Shown here: piece by piece, positions 8,434 to 20,622 of the stretch
Layout of the letters: the number at the start of each line of letters is the position of its first letter
Numbering within the stretch: the first letter of the stretch is position 1
Source: a virus
DNA length: 24,310 nt
Direction: 5' to 3' (one strand)
Virus record (IMG/VR): IMGVR_UViG_3300024317_000016
Span: 1-24,310 of that record
Notes under the pieces: generated by a model
What the model saw: the letters and a program-made list of their open reading frames with translations, nothing else
Told to the model about the DNA's origin: nothing
Databases searched by the model: none
Program-made: the position numbers and the translations under genes

Positions 8434-8592
8434 TCAGCGCCTCCCGTACCACCAGAGGACCGCGAGGCCCACGAGGAGCAGGGTCCCGGTCCCGACTTCG
8501 TCACAGACCGCCGGCGCGCGGCGCGCCAGCCCGGCGACCGGGATCGCGGCCGCCATCCACAGGCCGGCTAGGAGCACCAGACGACGGATCAC
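8434..8592 (-). CDS. 52-residue protein with two predicted membrane segments
   Basis: A short gene whose GTG start overlaps the upstream stop as GTGA and which ends 3 nt before the tape measure ATG. The protein has two hydrophobic stretches (about residues 5-23 and 33-49) separated by a short charged loop with RRAPAVCDE, and ends in WWYGRR. It looks like a two-pass membrane mini-protein. Function is unknown. The spacing on both sides, with no room for anything else, makes it a credible translated gene. A holin or ejection accessory role is possible but nothing in the sequence decides it. Confidence 0.6.
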   Translation of the reverse strand: MIRRLVLLAGLWMAAAIPVAGLARRAPAVCDEVGTGTLLLVGLAVLWWYGRR

Positions 8593-9002
8593 AACGTCCG
8601 ACCGCGGGACAGATCCCGCTCGAGCTTGGGACCGATGTCGCGCATCCGCCGAATGAACGGATCCCGTTCCTGTTCCGCCGCCGGCCGGAACATCGGCCGC
8701 GCCGGCATCCGCACCGTACCGTATTCCACAAAGCGCCAATAGACCTCCGGTCCCGGCCGGCCGCCGATCCCGAACCCCGGCGCGATCCCAACGCGCCCGG
8801 CCGTCCCCGTACTCTTCGACGTGATCGCCGCGCGTAAGCGGCCCGTGAGGCCTCGAGGCGCCCGCGCCCGCGCCGCTTGTTCCACGGCAAAGGTGGACTT
8901 GGCGATCGCGTCCGCGGCGAGCGCTTTGGCGGCCTCCGGGACCGCGGCGATCGCCCGCTTCGTTGCCTCGAACCCCTCGAGGGTCGCCGTTACTGTAGCC
9001 AC
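8589..9002 (-). CDS. HK97 gp10-like neck / tail-terminator family protein
   Basis: With the GTG start chosen here the protein has 137 residues. It has the family pattern: LEGFEATKRAIAAVPEAA at the N-terminus, an alanine-rich helix, then a region reading GLTGRLRAAITS, and the conserved WRFVEYGT followed by MPARPMFRPA. These hallmarks match HK97 gp10-like proteins at the head-tail neck. The GTG at 9002 overlaps the stop of the frameshifted chaperone by 13 bp. An ATG at 9038 would add 12 residues (MGGGRIALSAQT) but would overlap that gene by 49 bp, so the start is uncertain. Its place after the tail chaperones, rather than beside the head-closure gene, is unusual. Confidence 0.82.
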   Translation of the reverse strand: MATVTATLEGFEATKRAIAAVPEAAKALAADAIAKSTFAVEQAARARAPRGLTGRLRAAITSKSTGTAGRVGIAPGFGIGGRPGPEVYWRFVEYGTVRMPARPMFRPAAEQERDPFIRRMRDIGPKLERDLSRGRTL

Positions 9003-9711: not shown

Positions 9712-10134
9712 TTAGCTCGGGGATCCGCCGTTAAACGTGTCCGTGGTCTCCGACGTGATCGCGATCTCGAACGTGAACGTGGTCACACCATTGACCGTGG
9801 AGATCGCGCCCGTGTACTTGCCCGTGTTGCCCTGTCCGTGATAGCGGACTTGCCCGGTCGCGTGCCCTTGCGGCCCGTACACCCATTCGATATCGGTCAG
9901 GCCCATCAGATCGCCGAGCGCGTCCTCCGCCTCCTGCGACCACTTCCCGCCGACCGTCAAGCGCTTGTCCTCGAACCCGTAGAGAATGTTTTTCTTCGGA
10001 TTCGCGACGTCGGGCTGAAACGTCGTCCCGTCCTGTTCGTCCTGATTGTTGGACTTGTTGACACTGTCGCAGTACGTGGAGATGTTCGTACCACCGAGTT
10101 TGAGATAGACCTTTTTTCCGGTGATCACAGGCAT
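9712..10134 (-). CDS. Major tail tube protein
   Basis: 140 residues beginning MPVITGKKVYLKLGGTNIS, with a strong ribosome site (GGAAGGA, 9 nt before ATG). It begins with a strand, contains ITSETTDTF near the end, and has alternating polar and hydrophobic residues as in tail tube beta-sandwich proteins. The mid-region WSQEAEDALGDLMG is a helix typical of this family. It sits after tail completion genes and before the chaperones, and is followed by a stem-loop, all expected for the most abundant tail protein. Subunits would stack as hexameric rings around the tape measure. The specific family is not certain. Confidence 0.85.
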   Translation of the reverse strand: MPVITGKKVYLKLGGTNISTYCDSVNKSNNQDEQDGTTFQPDVANPKKNILYGFEDKRLTVGGKWSQEAEDALGDLMGLTDIEWVYGPQGHATGQVRYHGQGNTGKYTGAISTVNGVTTFTFEIAITSETTDTFNGGSPS

Positions 10135-11139: not shown

Positions 11140-11472
11140 CTATTGCGCCTCCACACAAGTGAGCTCGAGCGTCGCATGTCGATTGTCCACGTCGACCACG
11201 GAGGCGATCTGCAGCGTCCGGCCCTCGAGGACGACGGTCATATAGGACTCGATCCCCGGCCGATACCGGATGCGGACAACGCTCGCGATCCCCGACTGGA
11301 TGGCGCCGACTTGCAGCGCCTCGCCGAGCGGCCCGGACGTGATCTCCGCCGGGATGCGCGACGCGACCGTGACCGGCCCACTCGGGACCGTCCCGCCCGT
11401 CCCGGATTGCGTCCCGGCCGGCGCGACGATGTCCACGCGCGATCGGAGCGCCCCGGCTTTTACGTATGGCAT
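11140..11472 (-). CDS. Head closure / head-tail adaptor protein
   Basis: 110 residues beginning MPYVKAGALRSRVDI. A longer frame to 11961 exists, but its N-terminal part is a shadow of the GT8-like gene; I chose the ATG at 11472, which overlaps that gene by 13 bp. The features fit a small beta-barrel joining protein: LRSRVDI near the start, the VTVASRIPAEIT strand, a central region RIRYRPGIESYMTVVLEGRT and the phrase LQIASVVDVDNRHATLEL at the end. This matches SPP1 gp16-like / HK97 gp9-like adaptors that stop DNA leaking after packaging. The gene is separated from its natural partner, the gp6-like connector, by a six-gene enzymatic cassette. Confidence 0.8.
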   Translation of the reverse strand: MPYVKAGALRSRVDIVAPAGTQSGTGGTVPSGPVTVASRIPAEITSGPLGEALQVGAIQSGIASVVRIRYRPGIESYMTVVLEGRTLQIASVVDVDNRHATLELTCVEAQ

Positions 11473-12128
11473 CGGGATCCCCACGGCGCCTCGAGCGCCG
11501 GGACCTGCCAGGGTTTCGGCCGACCGTGGAAACAGACCACGCGCGCCCCCGGCGGGATCTGGCCGTTCAGGCAGTGGACCTTGTACGAGACGAGCGCCGC
11601 AGGGCAGACGTCCTGCCAAAACGTGAGCTCCGACCACGTCCCGCCGACAGTAAGCGCCGTTTCGATGTAGCGTTGATCGCCCCCGTACCCGCACGCGCGC
11701 ATGTACGTCTGCGGATCCGACGTGAATTCGTGATACCACGACGCGACCAGCGGATCGCCGGCCGTCCAGCCCATCACACCGGACCCCAGGCCGCGCGCAT
11801 ACTCCGGCGGACGGCGATAAAAGTCCTCGAGCGCGAGGAACCGCTCCCGGCGCGCCAGCAGCGGCGCGAGCGATCCCACGACCACCGAATCGAGATCGAG
11901 ATACAACAGCCGGAGGCCGTCCGGAAACAGCCCCGGCCGGAACAGCTCGATCTTCGACCACCAGCCCGGCCAGTCATGCGCGAGCTTATGTGTCAGGACC
12001 CCAGGGATCACGGTATCCGTCAGACAGCCGAAGGCCTCACCCGGCGCCCATAGCGCGATCTGCGCCCGGAGCTCCCGGACGTGGTCCGGCCGATACATCC
12101 CGCCCGATCGGAGGACCGCGACGATCAC
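11460..12128 (-). CDS. GT8-like glycosyltransferase
   Basis: 222 residues from a GTG at 12128 that overlaps the upstream stop as GTGA. A much longer open frame upstream is a shadow and was not used. Family marks: a DxD-type metal site in LLYLDLDSVV (D78, D80), GGDQ at 149-152, and FHGRPKPWQ at 200-208. The last is the HGxxKPW signature of GT8 and related GT-A enzymes and supplies the other metal and nucleotide contacts. The reaction should be transfer of a sugar from a nucleotide sugar to an acceptor I cannot name. It is the last gene of a six-gene block and overlaps the head-closure gene by 13 bp. No membrane segment is seen. Confidence 0.82.
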   Translation of the reverse strand: MIVAVLRSGGMYRPDHVRELRAQIALWAPGEAFGCLTDTVIPGVLTHKLAHDWPGWWSKIELFRPGLFPDGLRLLYLDLDSVVVGSLAPLLARRERFLALEDFYRRPPEYARGLGSGVMGWTAGDPLVASWYHEFTSDPQTYMRACGYGGDQRYIETALTVGGTWSELTFWQDVCPAALVSYKVHCLNGQIPPGARVVCFHGRPKPWQVPALEAPWGSRCHT

Positions 12129-12862
12129 AACGCGCCCCCGATCCGTTCGTGGTCCCACTTCCCGCCGCGGCGCCGCCGTTCCGCTTGCATCGCGAGGAAT
12201 TCCGCCCGATGGCCCTTGCCGTACCAGTTTTCCCGCGGCCCCAGGTGCGCGACTCGGAACGGGACCCCGCGGATCGGCCGTTTCGCCGTGCGCCATCGGT
12301 CCATCAGCCGATTGTCGTAATTGCCCGCATGGATCCAGCAGGTATCGATCAGCGGTTCCACGCCGACCACCACGGGATCCCATTGATGGAAGAGTTGAAA
12401 ATACCCGACGCCGAGAACATCCCCCGGCACGTGCGGCTGTCCGCGATCCTCCAGTGTCTGCGGCGTAGCGTCGAACCGATGGCACCCGTAGAGCGTTCCG
12501 ACCGCGAGGCCGCCCTCGAGGCGCGCGGCCCAATCGGACGGCGGGACCACGTCCGCATCGAACAGGAGGATCCAGCCGGGATTGCCATTCGTCCGCGCGC
12601 AGAGATCCGCGCGAGCCTCCTCGAGCGCCCGGCCTTTGTTGAACGCGGCGCCGTCGAGGTAAAAACTATTCGTCACTACAAGTGTGGAGCGATCCAGCGG
12701 CAGGCCGTCCGGCCCGCCTTTCAGGATCAGATCGATCGTGTCCCGATCGCGATGCACGGTGATCACCGTGAGCGACGCGAGGCCCGGGAGCCAGCGCGGC
12801 AGGCCGATCGCGAGCTCCGCCGCATAGTCGACACAGACGGTGATCCCGTGGATCGTATTCAC
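12125..12862 (-). CDS. GT-A fold glycosyltransferase, GT2-like
   Basis: 245 residues from a GTG at 12862 that overlaps the methyltransferase stop as GTGA; an ATG at 12880 would give a longer overlap. The sequence carries strand VCVDYAAELAIG near the start, a TVITVHRD strand, FNKGRALEEA at about 74-83, and the metal-binding DAD motif in LLFDADVVPP at residues 102-104. This order fits GT2-type and related GT-A transferases. C-terminal residues near ENWYGKGHRAEF are likely part of the acceptor lid. Donor and acceptor are not predictable. No membrane helix is evident, so the enzyme is probably soluble in the host cytoplasm. Confidence 0.75.
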   Translation of the reverse strand: MNTIHGITVCVDYAAELAIGLPRWLPGLASLTVITVHRDRDTIDLILKGGPDGLPLDRSTLVVTNSFYLDGAAFNKGRALEEARADLCARTNGNPGWILLFDADVVPPSDWAARLEGGLAVGTLYGCHRFDATPQTLEDRGQPHVPGDVLGVGYFQLFHQWDPVVVGVEPLIDTCWIHAGNYDNRLMDRWRTAKRPIRGVPFRVAHLGPRENWYGKGHRAEFLAMQAERRRRGGKWDHERIGGAL

Positions 12863-13407
12863 GCCGGTTTCTCCATCCACCAGGATCGGTATTCGTTCAG
12901 ATCCGCCGTGACATGGACCTCGAGGCCGTGCAGCTCCGCGAATTCATTCACGGCCCGAATGACGCCGGCGTGTTCCGCCATGTAATCGTGACCCGCAAAA
13001 ATCCCGCCTGTGGCGAGCGTCGGCCACCAGGCGTCGAGATCGTCCCGGACCGCAGACCAGGTATGCGCGCCGTCGATATAGATAAACCCCGGCCGATAGT
13101 ACCCGCCGATCGGCCGCGCGAGCGCCAGTGAATCGCCGCGGATCAGTTTCACACGGCCCCGGAACGGCGCGAGGAGGACCGCCGCCATCATCAGATCGGG
13201 CGTTCTGTCGTACGGCATATCCGCATACGGCGCCCAATGATCGACACAGATCAGGATCTCGCCTTTCCAGACCGTGAGGAATTGCTCTGCGAAGATGCCG
13301 CGATCGGTCCCGACTTCGATCGCCCGCACGATCCCCCGCGCGTTGCAGAGCTCCGCGAACTGCAGCCGATTCTCGAGCGGATAGGGCGGCGCCTCGATTA
13401 AGTCCAT
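12859..13407 (-). CDS. Class I SAM-dependent methyltransferase
   Basis: 182 residues with a GGGAG ribosome site 10 nt before the ATG, overlapping the upstream gene by 10 bp. The SAM-binding motif I is AIEVGTDRGIFAEQFL (about 29-44), followed by an acidic D56 in CVDHW, LIRGDS (about 88-93), and YIDGAHTWSAVRDDL near 110-124, then GGIFAGHDY. This is the typical layout of the Methyltransf_24 group, found in sugar and small-molecule O-methylation. Lying between two glycosyltransferases, it may methylate the glycan being made. A nucleic-acid target is less likely, since no target-recognition domain is visible. Confidence 0.82.
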   Translation of the reverse strand: MDLIEAPPYPLENRLQFAELCNARGIVRAIEVGTDRGIFAEQFLTVWKGEILICVDHWAPYADMPYDRTPDLMMAAVLLAPFRGRVKLIRGDSLALARPIGGYYRPGFIYIDGAHTWSAVRDDLDAWWPTLATGGIFAGHDYMAEHAGVIRAVNEFAELHGLEVHVTADLNEYRSWWMEKPA

Positions 13408-14366
13408 ACGGGGACCGCTCCCGCCGGCCGCGACGCGAGATAGAGCGACAGCGCGAGGCGCCGGCCGATCGCGCGATAGTCGTAGAACGATCGCGCTTTT
13501 GCCGCCCAGGCCGTCGCGGTGATCGGATCCCAGGCCTCGACCGCTGCGCGAATCACGGCCGCGAAGTCCGGCGGATTAATCGTGGAGGGAACCCGGATCA
13601 GCGCCGCGTCGATCTCCGGCAGGACATCGTACGCAGGCAGATCGGTAATCACGGTGCAGCCCACGGCGACCGCTTCAATGATCTTCCGGAGCGCAAACCC
13701 GTACATGGACGCCGTCGCGACCGAGACGCGGTACCGCGCCAGTTCCCGACAATACGCCGGCGTCACGGCGCCGCGATTCCCGTATCCCGGATGCCGGAGC
13801 ACGTCCAGACCGAGCGCGACTCGGTCCCGGACGGCCCGCTGCCGCAGCGGATAGGCCATCGACAGCGCGCCCGAGACGACGGCCGGCCGGCGAGTTGCGC
13901 CCATCGGGATCCCCGCGAGATCGTCCGCGTCGACCGAGTGGTAGGTGCGAATCAGCGGCACCGTCTGCAGCCACGGGGCATTTTTCCGGATCGAGATGGC
14001 ATGATAGTACGTGATCGCGGCGTGCGCGCCGACCTCCCGATAGACGTGTTCCTGATAGGCGAGCGATGAGGCCGCGTCCTTCACCACGACGGCCTTAAAC
14101 GCCTCCGTATCACGCAGCGCCGCGACCCGCTGAAACCCGAGATCCTTCCGGAACGCGATCGGGGACGCCGGATCCCAGTCCCGCGGATCATGCACGACGA
14201 TCCGCGTCGGCCGGTACCGCGCCAGGATCGTTGGCACATCTAACAGATCATCGAACCCGCGCCCGCAGAGGACCCATCCCGCCAGGTGCAAACCGGACTG
14301 GAATTGGTCGCCCTCCGTCGTCATATGCCGTCTATAGTCGACGTTCCCGAGGAGGATCTCCGTCAC
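13398..14366 (-). CDS. GT-B-like glycosyltransferase
   Basis: 322 residues from a GTG that overlaps the radical SAM stop as GTGA. An in-frame ATG at 14555 exists, but the extra part is out of frame with the radical SAM gene and looks like a shadow. Two Rossmann-like halves are suggested. The C-terminal half has the sugar-nucleotide binding pattern FALRKIIEAVAVGCTVITD at about 224-242, like the helix and following strand of GT4 and GT1 enzymes. Residues 136-146 contain PLIRTYHSVDA. The chemistry would be sugar transfer without a metal ion. The family within GT-B is uncertain, and a related sugar-processing enzyme is possible. Confidence 0.7.
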   Translation of the reverse strand: MTEILLGNVDYRRHMTTEGDQFQSGLHLAGWVLCGRGFDDLLDVPTILARYRPTRIVVHDPRDWDPASPIAFRKDLGFQRVAALRDTEAFKAVVVKDAASSLAYQEHVYREVGAHAAITYYHAISIRKNAPWLQTVPLIRTYHSVDADDLAGIPMGATRRPAVVSGALSMAYPLRQRAVRDRVALGLDVLRHPGYGNRGAVTPAYCRELARYRVSVATASMYGFALRKIIEAVAVGCTVITDLPAYDVLPEIDAALIRVPSTINPPDFAAVIRAAVEAWDPITATAWAAKARSFYDYRAIGRRLALSLYLASRPAGAVPVWT

Positions 14367-15265
14367 GGTTTCAGACTCCGGAGGCCTTGATAGTCCGTCG
14401 GCCGCGCGGTTTCGGGCGCCTCGAGATCGGTATGCGGGACCGCGGCGATCTTGCGAGACTTGAGACGCCCCGCGATGAGGGGAATGAACGTTTCTGAATA
14501 GTCGTACGTCGCCTCCGTGTCGAGATGCCCTAGGCGTCGCAGCGGGACCCCGCATCCCGCGTCACAACACTTGGCGACCTGATCCCCGAACCCCTCCATT
14601 CGATTCTTCCACCAGCCCGGGACGGCCGGGATCCCGTGATTCTCGCCACGGATCCCATCGAGCGCGCCGGCGACTTCACAGAAGTACGCGAACGGCGCGC
14701 CGTCCCGTTCAAAGACCGCCGCGGACCATGTTCGGTTAATATCGCACCCCTCACGCGCCGTGACCCATTGATCCGGCGTCAGGCCGACGTCTCGCCAGTG
14801 GAGGAGGATCGGCGCGTGCCAGGAGGCCCGGTTGCGCGAACTCGGGATCACCTTCCCCGGCAGATAGCGATCCATCACCGCGGCCGCGGCCGGATTCGCG
14901 TGCGCGTTGAGATTGAATCGTCCATGCGGGAAAAACGTGTCACGGATGAGCGCCCCGTGTCCGCGCAGATCGTTCGTCCAGATCCCCCGGTGACGTTGAT
15001 CGGGGACTTCCTCCCGGAGGATCGCCATCAGCGCAGGGAATTCCGGGTGCATACAGGGATTCCCGCCGAACACACCGCGGATCCCCGGCCAGCCGGCGAG
15101 CGATCGAAGCGCAAGGCGAAACACGTCCGGCGCCATGTGGACCGGATCGCGTCGGAAAGGCAACAACTGCGTACAGTTGGAGCACCAAAAGAGATCGCAG
15201 GATCGCGAGATCACGATCTGGATCGTGTCGTTGGTTTTCTCCGTGGGCGCCTTCACGGCCGACAC
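14363..15265 (-). CDS. Radical SAM enzyme with a C-terminal Cys-rich region
   Basis: 300 residues from a GTG. N-terminal cysteines C23, C28 and C31 lie in SRSCDLFWCSNC, so spacing is CX4CX2C rather than the usual CX3CX2C. They should hold a 4Fe-4S cluster. FGGNPCMHPEF (66-76) matches the GGEP-type SAM-binding motif. C174, C196, C233, C234 and C238 could bind further clusters, as in SPASM or twitch domains. The chemistry would be radical-based modification of an unknown substrate. It overlaps the DUF115-like gene by 13 bp and is followed by a glycosyltransferase with a GTGA overlap, so it is part of the same unit. Possible roles are sugar or peptide modification. GTG at 15265 has no strong ribosome site. 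Confidence 0.78.
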   Translation of the reverse strand: MSAVKAPTEKTNDTIQIVISRSCDLFWCSNCTQLLPFRRDPVHMAPDVFRLALRSLAGWPGIRGVFGGNPCMHPEFPALMAILREEVPDQRHRGIWTNDLRGHGALIRDTFFPHGRFNLNAHANPAAAAVMDRYLPGKVIPSSRNRASWHAPILLHWRDVGLTPDQWVTAREGCDINRTWSAAVFERDGAPFAYFCEVAGALDGIRGENHGIPAVPGWWKNRMEGFGDQVAKCCDAGCGVPLRRLGHLDTEATYDYSETFIPLIAGRLKSRKIAAVPHTDLEAPETARPTDYQGLRSLKP

Positions 15266-15918
15266 TCTAGCAGAGCGCTTCGCTGATTGTCTAGGCGACC
15301 GTCGAGGACCTCCTCAAGCGCCGCGCGAGGGAACCAGTTGATCGCGGTCTGCCGCGAGCAGTTGACGACGTCGACGCCGGCCGCTTGGAGTGGTTCAACC
15401 AGCGTCGAAAACGCGGCGCGCCAGGATCGAAAAATAAGCTCCGTTGGCCCGGCGCCATGCGGATGATCCCCGTGCCAATGCGTGCGGCCGTCCGGTCCGG
15501 CCTGCAGATCGTAGCCGAGGAGGATGATCCGCCGCGCGCCGAGGAGGACTGCGACATTGATCGCCGCGTATCCGCTGTTCCGGCCGTTACAGATCCGTTC
15601 CGGATCGAGCGACAGACCCCAAATCCCGGCGTTTTTGAGCAGGATACACCCGGCCGCTTGTGAGGCTTTCGTGCGCTCGAGTGAGAATTTCAGGCCCGGG
15701 AACTGCGCCAGGCGATCCGCTTCCCAGTCCCACATGCGCCCGTCTGAGGCATAGAAGGCATCCGCCCACGGCGCGAGGATCACCGACTTGTTGACGGCGA
15801 CCACGCGCGCCCGGCCGCGGCAGTACTCGACATCGGCCGCCGTCAGACTGGGACCCGCCGCGATACAGACCACGGTTGATCCCGGCCAGGCCTTCGGGAC
15901 CACGCCGAACGGATTCAC
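15253..15918 (-). CDS. DUF115-like / putative sugar-transfer protein
   Basis: 221 residues; the GTG start overlaps the connector stop as GTGA. The N-terminal part reads VVCIAAGPSLT, which resembles the start of DUF115 and MptE-like proteins, followed by VVAVNKSVILAPWADAFYASD. The C-terminal half contains NSGYAAINVAVLLGARRIIL, LLGYDLQ and HWHGDHP. This pattern recurs in phage proteins annotated as DUF115 or sialyltransferase-like. A nucleotide-sugar enzyme is the likeliest role given the neighbours, but no catalytic residues can be assigned. It is the first gene of the six-gene cassette that splits the connector genes. Confidence 0.65.
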   Translation of the reverse strand: MNPFGVVPKAWPGSTVVCIAAGPSLTAADVEYCRGRARVVAVNKSVILAPWADAFYASDGRMWDWEADRLAQFPGLKFSLERTKASQAAGCILLKNAGIWGLSLDPERICNGRNSGYAAINVAVLLGARRIILLGYDLQAGPDGRTHWHGDHPHGAGPTELIFRSWRAAFSTLVEPLQAAGVDVVNCSRQTAINWFPRAALEEVLDGRLDNQRSALLECRP

Positions 15919-16256
15919 GCGATCACCGCCTCGATCCAGCGTCCGAGATAGCGCCGGACCTCCGGCGAGAGATCCGCCGGGACCGGGAGCGTCGGCGCGA
16001 CCGTCCGCACTTCGTAGAGCTCGGCGAGTTGCGCCATCACGGCCGCGCGGATCCCTTCCGGGACCGTGTCCGCGTCCCAGTTTGCGATCACGCCGAGCAC
16101 GAGACTGTCTGTGGTCGCGAGCTCGAGGTAATTGATCACGATCGATTGCGCCATTTGCGCGTACAGCGCGATCAGATCGTCTTCGTCGGCAAACGTGACC
16201 CGGAGGACAGCTTTCGCCTCCGCGAGCGTCAAAAAGACGTCACCACTTCCCGCCAT
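15915..16256 (-). CDS. gp6-like head-tail connector protein
   Basis: 113 residues from the ATG at 16256. The longer frame to 16430 adds a basic N-terminus that is antisense or off-frame to the collagen gene and was discarded. The remaining protein reads [31 protein letters not shown], then helical repeats with [18 protein letters not shown] and a C-terminal YLGRWIE. This is the all-helical pattern of HK97 gp6-like connectors that form a ring under the portal. It overlaps the collagen-like gene by 17 bp and the next gene by 4 bp (GTGA). Its natural partner, the head-closure protein, lies about 4.4 kb further on. Confidence 0.85.
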
Positions 16257-17028
16257 CAGGCCCCACTTGATACCGATCGACGCCCGGCCGGCCGTCGGCG
16301 CCCGGTCGCCCGTCGTTGCCCTTCGTCCCATCACGGCCCCGCGCCGCGAGGAGCGCCCATTTCGTGCCGCCGTCCTCCGGAGGACTCGAGACGGCCTCGA
16401 GCGCGACCCAGGAGGATCCCTTGTACACAATCACGTCGCCGGCGTCATACGCCCGGCCGGCCTGATAGGCCTTGCGAAAGATGAGCGCCGGCGCCGCGAG
16501 CTCCCCGCCTTCGATCGGCGTCCCGTCCGCAAACACCCATCGGGATCGGCGTTCGTCCAGGCGTTCGATCCGGCACCCCTTCACCGTCCCGTCGCGCCCG
16601 GCCGGCCCGATCGCCCCGTCCCGGCCGTCCCGTCCCGGAGGCCCCGGCGGCCCGTCAGAACCACGCGCGCCCGGAACCCCGTCAGACCCCTTCGCGCCGT
16701 CCGATCCGGGCGCACCGGGACCGCCAGTCGGCCCCGGAGGCCCCGGGGGACCGACCTTCCCGGCCTCGCCGGCCGGGCCGACGTGACCCATCAGGCCGGC
16801 CTCGCCTCGCGGTCCCGGCGGTCCCGGCGGTCCCGGCGGTCCGACCTTCCCGACCTCGCCCGGCGGTCCCGGCGGTCCGGCCGGTCCGGCGATCGCCGCT
16901 TTCCTTCGGAGCTCCGCGGCCTCGCCCTCGAGCGCCTTGATCCGCGCGACCAGCGGCGCGGTCGCCGTTTCGATCGCCTCCCGAAACACCCCGGCAAATG
17001 CGTCGATCTCGTCAGACGTCAGCGGCAT
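16240..17028 (-). CDS. Collagen-like protein with a carbohydrate-binding-like domain
   Basis: 262 residues. A short helix (about 5-46) that could trimerise the chain is followed by 34 uninterrupted Gly-X-Y triplets at residues 48-149, many of them GPP. Next is a compact segment at about 181-228 ([18 protein letters not shown], then TKWALLA) that resembles CBM5/12-type modules. A short second collagen stretch (7 triplets) follows. It overlaps the portal gene by 17 bp and the connector gene by 17 bp, so it is made with the head proteins. A head fibre or decoration that sticks to glycans is the best inference. Lys and Pro positions could be modified; no hydroxylase gene was seen. The triplets also create repeated GC-rich DNA. 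Confidence 0.85.
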
Positions 17029-18654: not shown

Positions 18655-20622
18655 TTAGCTCGGACTGGCGACGCCGCCCCAGTTGACGGACTGGATCACC
18701 GCGACTACACCGGACCGCCGCAGCCCCCACGAAATGAACCGCTCGGCTCGGAACGCGACCAGGTTATCCTGCCAGAGGCTCACCAGCGATACGCCTGTCG
18801 TTCCGCTTTGCGTCGGCGCGTCGTTCATTTCGAGCGACGCCTCGCGCGACATGTCGACCGTGACCTCGCCGTCGTCCGCGAGATTGATCTCCGGTGCCAC
18901 GACGGCCACAACCAGGTTCCCGTACCCCGCGAGCGCGAGATAGTTGCTGACGATCACCGGGATCCCTTGCAAGGTGCCGCCATTGATCCCGATCGTCGGG
19001 AACTCGACCGCGCCGACCGACGTCCGCATGAGCGAGGCCGCCAGCGCGACGCCCGGCGGCATCAGGAGCACGACGCCGCGCGGATCGATGTTGTCCGTGG
19101 TCCCAAGGCCGATCGCGCCGACCGCGGAGAAGAGGCTCAGGATATCCGTCCGGACGTCGTCCGCCGTATTCCCCGCCGAGCTCCCCAGGCTCACGCCGTA
19201 GGTCAGCGACGCCGGATTGACGTTGGACACGGCCGCGAGCGTCGGATCGACCAGACTCATATCGATCTTTTTCACGACGGCGCGCGTCAGCGCGTCTCGC
19301 ATGGCGGTTTCTGTGCTCAGCCCCGGAATATTCCCGAATCGGAGGATCTCCTCACTGTCGATCACGATCGCGGCGATCTTCGTGTGGCCCAGGGTTTGCG
19401 CGGTATATCCGCCCTTCGTGACCGGCTTGGGTTTCGCCTCGCCGACCCAGTTGGCCGTCATCGCCTGCGATTCCACCAACTGCCGCATATTGAACGGCAC
19501 GCGATTGAGCGCCGGGATCCCGTTCGCCCCGAATTGCCCGATGATCGTCCGTGGTTGCAGGTACGTCACAAAGTCCGCGATCGTCTGGTTGTAGATGAGG
19601 TTTCCGGCCCACGTCGCATCGGTGCTCACCGCCGGCGCGACCGCCGCTTTCACCGCCATGTGTAGCGAATCGGCGGACGGGTACCACTTGCGCGCGACCT
19701 CGAGCGCGTTGAGCGCGTTCCCGCGCATGTGCGCGTACTGCGCCGCGCACTTGCACATCATCACGCGGACAAACCCGATGCCAGGCGGCAGTTTGGGTTC
19801 CTCGATACTGACTGATCGCTGGACGTTCGGATCGGGCGCCGGCGACCGACGCGGCGCGACCGTGATCGCCTGTTCCACCGCAAGGCTTTCGAGCACGCGA
19901 TAACTTTTGATCTGCGCGCCGATCCGCTCGAGCTCCGATGTCAGACTGTCTCGATCCGTGGTTTCGTCGTCCGTCAGGGTATCTTTGGCGAGGAGCGCCT
20001 CGAGCGCGTCCTGTTTCGTAGTCCGCTCGAGACCGAGCGCCGAGATCCGTTCGCTGTGAGTCATGATCTGATCCTTCTGCAATGACCCCGCGACCGCGGG
20101 AGGACTGCCGGGACGTCGGCCGGACTCGGCGCGGTGACGTTGATCGGCGGATTTGATGGCGGTGATTGTCGTTTGACTGTTCGCCGGGACCGTGACCGTC
20201 GACGTCTCGAACCAATCCCACTCCGACACGCGGAGGCCGTAACTGCCTTTGATTGGCGTCGCCTTGATCGGGCGCCAGCCGATCGACAGGCCCGGCACGA
20301 GACCGGCCTTGATGAGCGGCCACACCGTCTCGTCAATGAACGCAATCCCCTTCGAGATTTGCGCGCGGATCTTGATCCCCGCGGCCGTCACGGTCGCCGA
20401 CAGGACTTTCCCGATCGGTTTGTTGGGATCGTGTTGCCAGAGGAGCGGCATCGGGAGCGAAAATTGCGCGCCCTCGGGTTCCATAATGTCGCCGCCGCGG
20501 TCCGGCGCCGGTGTCGACGCGAGGCCTTCAATGATCCGGAGCTCGGGATCGATCGCTTTAAACGCGACCGTCGCGATCGCAAACGAATCCCGGAACGGCA
20601 CCGGCATCGTTGAGGAGGCCAA
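18655..20622 (-). CDS. Prohead protease fused to HK97-fold major capsid protein
   Basis: 655 residues if the TTG at 20622 is used; the ATG at 20607 gives 650. The start is uncertain because neither has a clear ribosome site. Residues about 20-155 match the S78-type prohead protease: IIEGLASTPAPDRGGDI, catalytic His in WQHDPNKPIG (H64), Ser in GLSIGW (S113), and Glu in WFETSTVTVPAN (E139). A basic linker follows, then a scaffold-like helical stretch (about 187-265) and the HK97-fold capsid domain to the end (for example GQFGANGIPALNRVPFN). Capsid and protease are normally separate genes. The fusion may be partly bypassed by an in-frame internal start at 20064, which would give a 469-residue capsid protein. 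Confidence 0.9.
   Translation of the reverse strand: MASSTMPVPFRDSFAIATVAFKAIDPELRIIEGLASTPAPDRGGDIMEPEGAQFSLPMPLLWQHDPNKPIGKVLSATVTAAGIKIRAQISKGIAFIDETVWPLIKAGLVPGLSIGWRPIKATPIKGSYGLRVSEWDWFETSTVTVPANSQTTITAIKSADQRHRAESGRRPGSPPAVAGSLQKDQIMTHSERISALGLERTTKQDALEALLAKDTLTDDETTDRDSLTSELERIGAQIKSYRVLESLAVEQAITVAPRRSPAPDPNVQRSVSIEEPKLPPGIGFVRVMMCKCAAQYAHMRGNALNALEVARKWYPSADSLHMAVKAAVAPAVSTDATWAGNLIYNQTIADFVTYLQPRTIIGQFGANGIPALNRVPFNMRQLVESQAMTANWVGEAKPKPVTKGGYTAQTLGHTKIAAIVIDSEEILRFGNIPGLSTETAMRDALTRAVVKKIDMSLVDPTLAAVSNVNPASLTYGVSLGSSAGNTADDVRTDILSLFSAVGAIGLGTTDNIDPRGVVLLMPPGVALAASLMRTSVGAVEFPTIGINGGTLQGIPVIVSNYLALAGYGNLVVAVVAPEINLADDGEVTVDMSREASLEMNDAPTQSGTTGVSLVSLWQDNLVAFRAERFISWGLRRSGVVAVIQSVNWGGVASPS
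20062..20078 (-). promoter_or_regulatory. Internal ribosome site and ATG for the capsid part of the fusion
   Basis: On the minus strand AGAAGGA lies at 20078-20072, followed by 7 nt and an in-frame ATG at 20064 (residue 187 of the fusion: MTHSERISALGLE). This is one of the clearest Shine-Dalgarno sites in the window, and it lies just after the protease domain and just before the scaffold-like helix. It could start a separate capsid protein in excess over the fusion. Independent initiation is inferred, not shown. Confidence 0.65.

Follow-up and report, generated by a model that had tools for sequence, protein, structure and literature searches.

The window, a 24,310-base stretch of the uncultured virus record IMGVR_UViG_3300024317_000016, carries terminase, capsid, portal, connector and tail genes on the minus strand. 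Six open reading frames (ORFs), C1 to C6, fill positions 11460-15918 (-), exactly between the gp6-like adaptor gene Ad1 and the head-closure gene Hc1. With moderate confidence, we believe that this cassette encodes a pathway made late in infection, which builds a glycan and modifies it by radical chemistry, most likely on a virion protein. The results support the cassette as a conserved unit under selection at the connector site, with a recurring association with structural genes. The genes and their two flanks are as follows, all on the minus strand (SAM, S-adenosylmethionine).

Ad1, 15915-16256 (-), gp6-like head-tail adaptor, upstream flank (PF05135 2.7e-7, PHROG_40 4.6e-11)
C1, 15253-15918 (-), DUF115/MptE-like protein (PHROG_4603 1.1e-43, PF01973 2.9e-4)
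C2, 14363-15256 (-), predicted radical SAM enzyme (CDLFWCSNC and GGNP motifs, family profile)
C3, 13398-14366 (-), predicted GT-B-fold glycosyltransferase (AlphaFold and Foldseek)
C4, 12859-13407 (-), predicted SAM-dependent methyltransferase (Methyltransf_24, PF13578 1.7e-13)
C5, 12125-12862 (-), predicted GT2-like GT-A glycosyltransferase (DxD in the alignment, Pfam matches of homologues)
C6, 11460-12128 (-), predicted GT8/glycogenin-like glycosyltransferase (PHROG_1962 1.6e-38, profile against PDB)
Hc1, 11140-11472 (-), head closure, downstream flank (PF05521 1.8e-15, PHROG_25 1.4e-12)

Arrangement and Conservation of the Cassette

The first-pass annotation had placed a six-gene block between a gp6-like connector gene and a head-closure gene, joined throughout by overlaps of 4-13 bp. 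All six ORFs were present, both flanks were verified by Pfam and PHROG, and overlaps of 4, 10 and 13 bp were found. With refined starts, 4-bp GTGA overlaps lie at Ad1/C1 (15918), C1/C2 (15256), C2/C3 (14366), C4/C5 (12862) and C5/C6 (12128), and longer ones at C3/C4 (10 bp) and C6/Hc1 (13 bp). The predominance of GTGA overlaps at the junctions makes it probable that translation of the cassette genes is coupled to that of the adjoining structural genes. The claim that they must be made late was overstated; the overlaps and the operon position suggest late production. Several predicted glycosyltransferases and a methyltransferase are embedded in the structural operon of the window. The guanine-cytosine content of the cassette genes (63-68%) did not differ from that of the whole window (65%), and a foreign origin by composition was rejected.

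Relatives were collected by IMG/VR scans and local tblastn. The cassette proteins were found at 100% identity in contigs of two other metagenomes, which rules out an assembly chimera. The gene order was kept in the related contigs L004, L007 and L008. L004 has the complete block with both flanking connector genes at 64-87% protein identity, and the 43-kb contigs L007 and L008 have the same six genes with cassette proteins 49-73% identical to those of the window. In L007, C1 closely follows Ad1 and C6 abuts Hc1 (PHROG_25 1.5e-8, read from L026, a copy of the same contig). L005 (71-84% identity) ends inside C3; L005 and L006 are both cut by contig ends and start alike. In the contigs carrying both connector genes, the block lies between them.

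Between L007 and the window, the portal (43%), capsid (37%) and Ad1 (31%) are less similar than the cassette proteins, and L021, with a closer portal (52%), has only a C1 homologue after the adaptor. These comparisons indicate that the cassette is gained, lost or exchanged apart from the backbone, yet retained at one site. The ratio of nonsynonymous to synonymous substitution rates (dN/dS) of the cassette was 0.13-0.34, indicating purifying selection and overlapping the range of the structural genes (0.09-0.29). A recent random insertion with broken genes, which had been named beforehand as the pattern that would speak against the proposal, was not seen in the relatives; it is ruled out because the block is intact, keeps its gene order even in diverged relatives and is under purifying selection.

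Enzymes Encoded by the Cassette

Three glycosyltransferases of different folds had been proposed from the sequence. This holds for C3 and C6, and less firmly for C5, through its homologues. C6 carries an LDLD motif and is homologous to PmgQ of phage P1 and HdmD of phage P7. Its profile matched Skp1 galactosyltransferase (3.7e-7) and glycogenin (2.6e-4) in PDB, with Pfam GT8 itself at E 0.27, and on this profile C6 is classed as a GT8-type enzyme, that is, a GT-A protein with a DxD motif and likeness to glycogenin and Skp1 galactosyltransferase. C5 alone gave no significant match to Pfam GT2 (E=0.19). Its DxD motif (D102, D104) is invariant in a 20-member alignment (A12), and its homologues matched PF00535 at up to 2.5e-8 and PF13704 in 5 of the 20. 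C5 is best described as a divergent GT2-like GT-A glycosyltransferase, with significant Pfam support in homologues only. C4 matched Methyltransf_24, in agreement with the SAM methyltransferase that had been proposed.

C3 had no sequence family match. Its AlphaFold model (predicted local distance difference test, pLDDT, 80; predicted template modelling score, pTM, 0.78) was compared with characterised glycosyltransferases by Foldseek; the top match was PimA (E 4.9e-7, probability 1.00), followed by many GT4-type enzymes, with TM (template modelling) scores of only about 0.45. The model indicates a GT-B fold, with two Rossmann-like domains and a GT4-type C-terminal motif. The other matches included the phage glycosyltransferase HY126 and, weakly, T4 AGT. 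Some phage glycosyltransferases have DNA as their substrate, and the cassette might instead hypermodify the phage DNA with glycosylated bases against restriction. We regard this as very improbable because of gene content: in the regions scanned of the two relatives of 34 kb and 43 kb (G001 and G002), no family for hydroxymethyl-base synthesis or other hypermodification is listed, and apart from a DNA methylase the genes are those ordinary for a phage. The cassette also sits in the connector operon, and base-modification genes are usually early and located elsewhere.

C1 had been read as a DUF115-like protein. It matched MptE-like/DUF115 weakly, and it belongs to PHROG_4603, labelled "alpha-2,3-sialyltransferase", with homologues 34-38% identical in phages D3 (orf7), PAJU2 (gp10) and P1 (PmgO). 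The sialyltransferase name of this PHROG rests on annotation, and the best profile match of C1 to the CstII sialyltransferases of family GT42 was not significant (E 0.17). C1 may itself be a glycosyltransferase, the fourth of the cassette.

The Radical SAM Family of C2

C2 itself had no direct family match. Its motifs are CDLFWCSNC, which is CX4CX2C and not the canonical CX3CX2C, and GGNP. An alignment-based IMG/VR scan gave at least 103 C2 relatives, of which 80 were kept; together with earlier loci they made 96 loci, which were reduced to 53 representatives at 90% identity. The canonical CX3CX2C was present in 43 of the 53 and CX4CX2C in 10, among them the clade of the window; GGN was present in all 53. 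The homologues L028, L029 and L031 (50% identity) have CX3CX2C. Homologues matched PF04055 at 2.7e-5 (L058), below Pfam's own cut-off score. With its three-cysteine motif and GGE-type motif, the C2 family is assigned to the radical SAM superfamily; the canonical motif and the PF04055 matches in homologues rule out a misassignment. The radical SAM call of the first-pass annotation stands for the family, with a variant motif in the window.

The C2 family is associated with glycosyltransferases both by fusion and by neighbourhood. In 7 of the 53 representatives (L058, L063, L067, L068, L070, L072 and L078), an N-terminal exostosin-type GT47 domain is fused to the radical SAM domain. These proteins of environmental phages have approximately 616-625 amino acids (aa), and L058 matched both PF03016 (1.8e-30) and PF04055 (2.7e-5). 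L045 and L046 have a radical SAM domain with a C-terminal GT2 domain (PF00535 2.7e-27). That C2 homologues are fused to two glycosyltransferase families unrelated to each other is, in our view, the strongest sign that C2 would act in a glycan pathway. Of the 53 representatives, 23 have a C5 homologue no more than 3.5 kb away, 21 a C4-like methyltransferase, 17 a C3 homologue, 7 a C1 homologue and 6 a C6 homologue; these counts are lower bounds, many contigs being short. C2, C3 and C5 form a core trio that is found again in other phages, interspersed with varying methyltransferases and transferases and repeatedly within the head-tail region. The L031 copy has a gp6-like adaptor on one side and, on the other, a gene judged Hc1-like by reading, without a PHROG hit. 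Capsid, prohead protease, portal and terminase families rank among the commonest annotated neighbours of C2 homologues.

Two further ORFs were noticed in related cassettes. In L012, the ORF at 12236-12913 ends a C1-C6-C2-C5-methyltransferase cassette; it starts with a P-loop-like GPPRSA, is possibly a sulfotransferase, and had no Pfam match. In L028, a small ORF within the cassette (8488-8991) has a P-loop-like motif, GGTAVGKKRFIDRAV, and L031 has a similar ORF.

Four further cysteines of C2 (C171, C193, C231 and C235 in the window) are kept across 29 diverse family members and probably bind an auxiliary iron-sulfur (Fe-S) cluster, perhaps of the twitch/SPASM type. Such a cluster, together with a weak profile match to the peptide-modifying YydG (E 0.008), would also suit an enzyme that mainly modifies a peptide or protein by epimerisation, crosslinking or thioether formation, with the glycosyltransferases decorating the same structural product or one resembling a ribosomally synthesised and post-translationally modified peptide. 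We think this improbable. No small precursor-peptide gene was recognised in the cassette, and the fusions of C2 homologues are to glycosyltransferases, pointing to a glycan substrate. The nearest solved chain to the C2 family profile in PDB is BtrN (5.5e-5), a bacterial antibiotic enzyme that acts as a dehydrogenase on an aminocyclitol, a sugar-like alcohol.

Two scans of 84,980 prokaryote genomes, seeded by short peptide motifs that divergent members could escape, confirmed no C2 relative. None was found in 50,697 cultured phages, where the L058 fusion matched via its GT47 part only and C3 and C5 had no counterpart either, and the distant member L095 had no plasmid homologue. The C2 family appears virus-restricted, but only provisionally, because genome scans that start from short motifs may miss divergent members. 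A further possibility, which we put forward tentatively and doubt more than we trust, is that C2 founds a phage-confined radical SAM family tied to glycosyltransferases, by which viruses place on their particles a sugar of keto-, epi- or deoxy-type, altered by radical chemistry and not made by their hosts.

Proposed Pathway and Its Target

We propose that C3, C5, C6 and probably C1 would act as soluble glycosyltransferases, using nucleotide sugars from the host to build a short glycan; its acceptor would be cytoplasmic, most likely a virion protein encoded around the cassette. C4 would methylate the glycan, and C2 would abstract hydrogen from one of the sugars or from the peptide acceptor, for example to oxidise or epimerise it. 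In this scheme, we infer the late expression, the virion-protein target, the order of the steps and the radical reaction.

The same enzymes could alter a host surface glycan, lipopolysaccharide (LPS) or capsule, late in infection and so block re-adsorption of progeny or superinfection. Glycosyltransferase clusters of cyanophages and pelagiphages have been interpreted in this way (PMC7029224, PMC7824862), and the GT2 portion of the L045 fusion is similar to PHROGs for GtrB-like O-antigen conversion. However, the cassette has no membrane protein, flippase or polyprenyl-phosphate transferase, none of its six proteins has a clear transmembrane segment, and no nucleoside diphosphate (NDP)-sugar epimerase family was found in 7 related contigs. 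Its site is the connector operon and not a lysogeny or tail-fibre module. We consider a host surface target unlikely. Three points favour glycosylation of a virion protein: the place of the cassette in the operon, the lack of genes for membrane proteins or nucleotide sugars, and the precedent of the phages Corndog and Che8.

Several points weigh against a virion glycan modified by C2. The analysis did not single out an acceptor protein. The BtrN match is limited to the radical SAM core, the AlphaFold model of C2 (8 sequences) is of low confidence (pLDDT 44), and no C3 or C5 homologue was recognised within 3.5 kb of many distant C2 homologues (the 38-44% clade). P1 does not need pmgO or pmgQ to form plaques in the laboratory (PMC10695390), which fits a decoration and proves nothing.

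The capsid protein of the window (18655-20622, protease-fused, 655 aa) ends in GGVASPS and the major tail protein (9712-10134) in GGSPS. The glycans of mycobacteriophages sit at the C-termini of the capsid and major tail proteins. The C-terminal SPS of the capsid is kept in L005 and not in L007, and a common SPS of capsid and tail tube as the acceptor motif is only a lead.

A collagen-like protein, whose C-terminal part weakly matches CBM_5_12, is encoded between the portal and the adaptor (16240-17028), and collagen-like genes occupy the same place in L005, L006, L007, L008 and L021. In a reading, not a systematic test, of ORFs from L010 and L031, two phages with the cassette, none was noticed; because of this, the collagen-like protein is not favoured as an obligatory target.

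To our knowledge, only a few phages are known to have glycosylated virions; in these, the glycans protect the particles from antibodies. If the proposed pathway is true, a widespread environmental family adds radical chemistry to virion glycosylation, and phages make sugar structures that are their own. This would bear on the stability and recognition of the particles and on the search for new enzymes that modify glycans. In the GT47-radical SAM fusions, a single polypeptide offers a handle on this chemistry.

Comparison with Known Systems

The first-pass annotation had judged that the unit looks like an undescribed late modification pathway. Its radical SAM enzyme is unusual, but glycan cassettes in structural operons are known from Corndog and Che8, and single C1-type genes from D3 and PAJU2. 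The radical SAM branch is apparently undescribed: the literature, covered in part, gave no description of the C2 family or of GT47-radical SAM phage proteins.

The Pseudomonas phages D3, PMG1 and PAJU2 resemble the cassette in having a C1-family gene in the connector region, between the capsid gene and Ad1 in D3 and beside Hc1 in PAJU2, where a methyltransferase gene follows two genes later. Unlike the cassette, they gave no radical SAM, C3, C5 or C6 homologue. P1 (pmgO/pmgQ), P7 (with hdmD) and Citrobacter phage phiNP encode C1 and C6 homologues close together, but outside the connector module and without a radical SAM gene, and the P1 pair is dispensable (PMC10695390).

For C2, BtrN is the closest solved chain by profile, but only the core aligns and BtrN is bacterial rather than from a phage. 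Host-recognition clusters of pelagimyophages and cyanophages also hold glycosyltransferase and radical SAM genes in one region, but they lie with tail fibres in myophages and are read as modifying host LPS (PMC7029224). The pelagimyophage radical SAM cassettes near tail-fibre regions could be related to C2.

The precedent in gene content is that of Corndog (cluster O) and Che8, which have glycosyltransferases in the virion structural operon, in Corndog together with a methyltransferase (PMC4351075, PMC12363180). The Corndog genes lie between the portal and protease genes, and the available text of these reports mentions no radical SAM enzyme. Their products are made in infected cells, and the first analysis did not assign them to the virion (PMC4351075). 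The virions of both Corndog and Che8 have been shown experimentally to be glycosylated (PMC12363180, PMC12619734).

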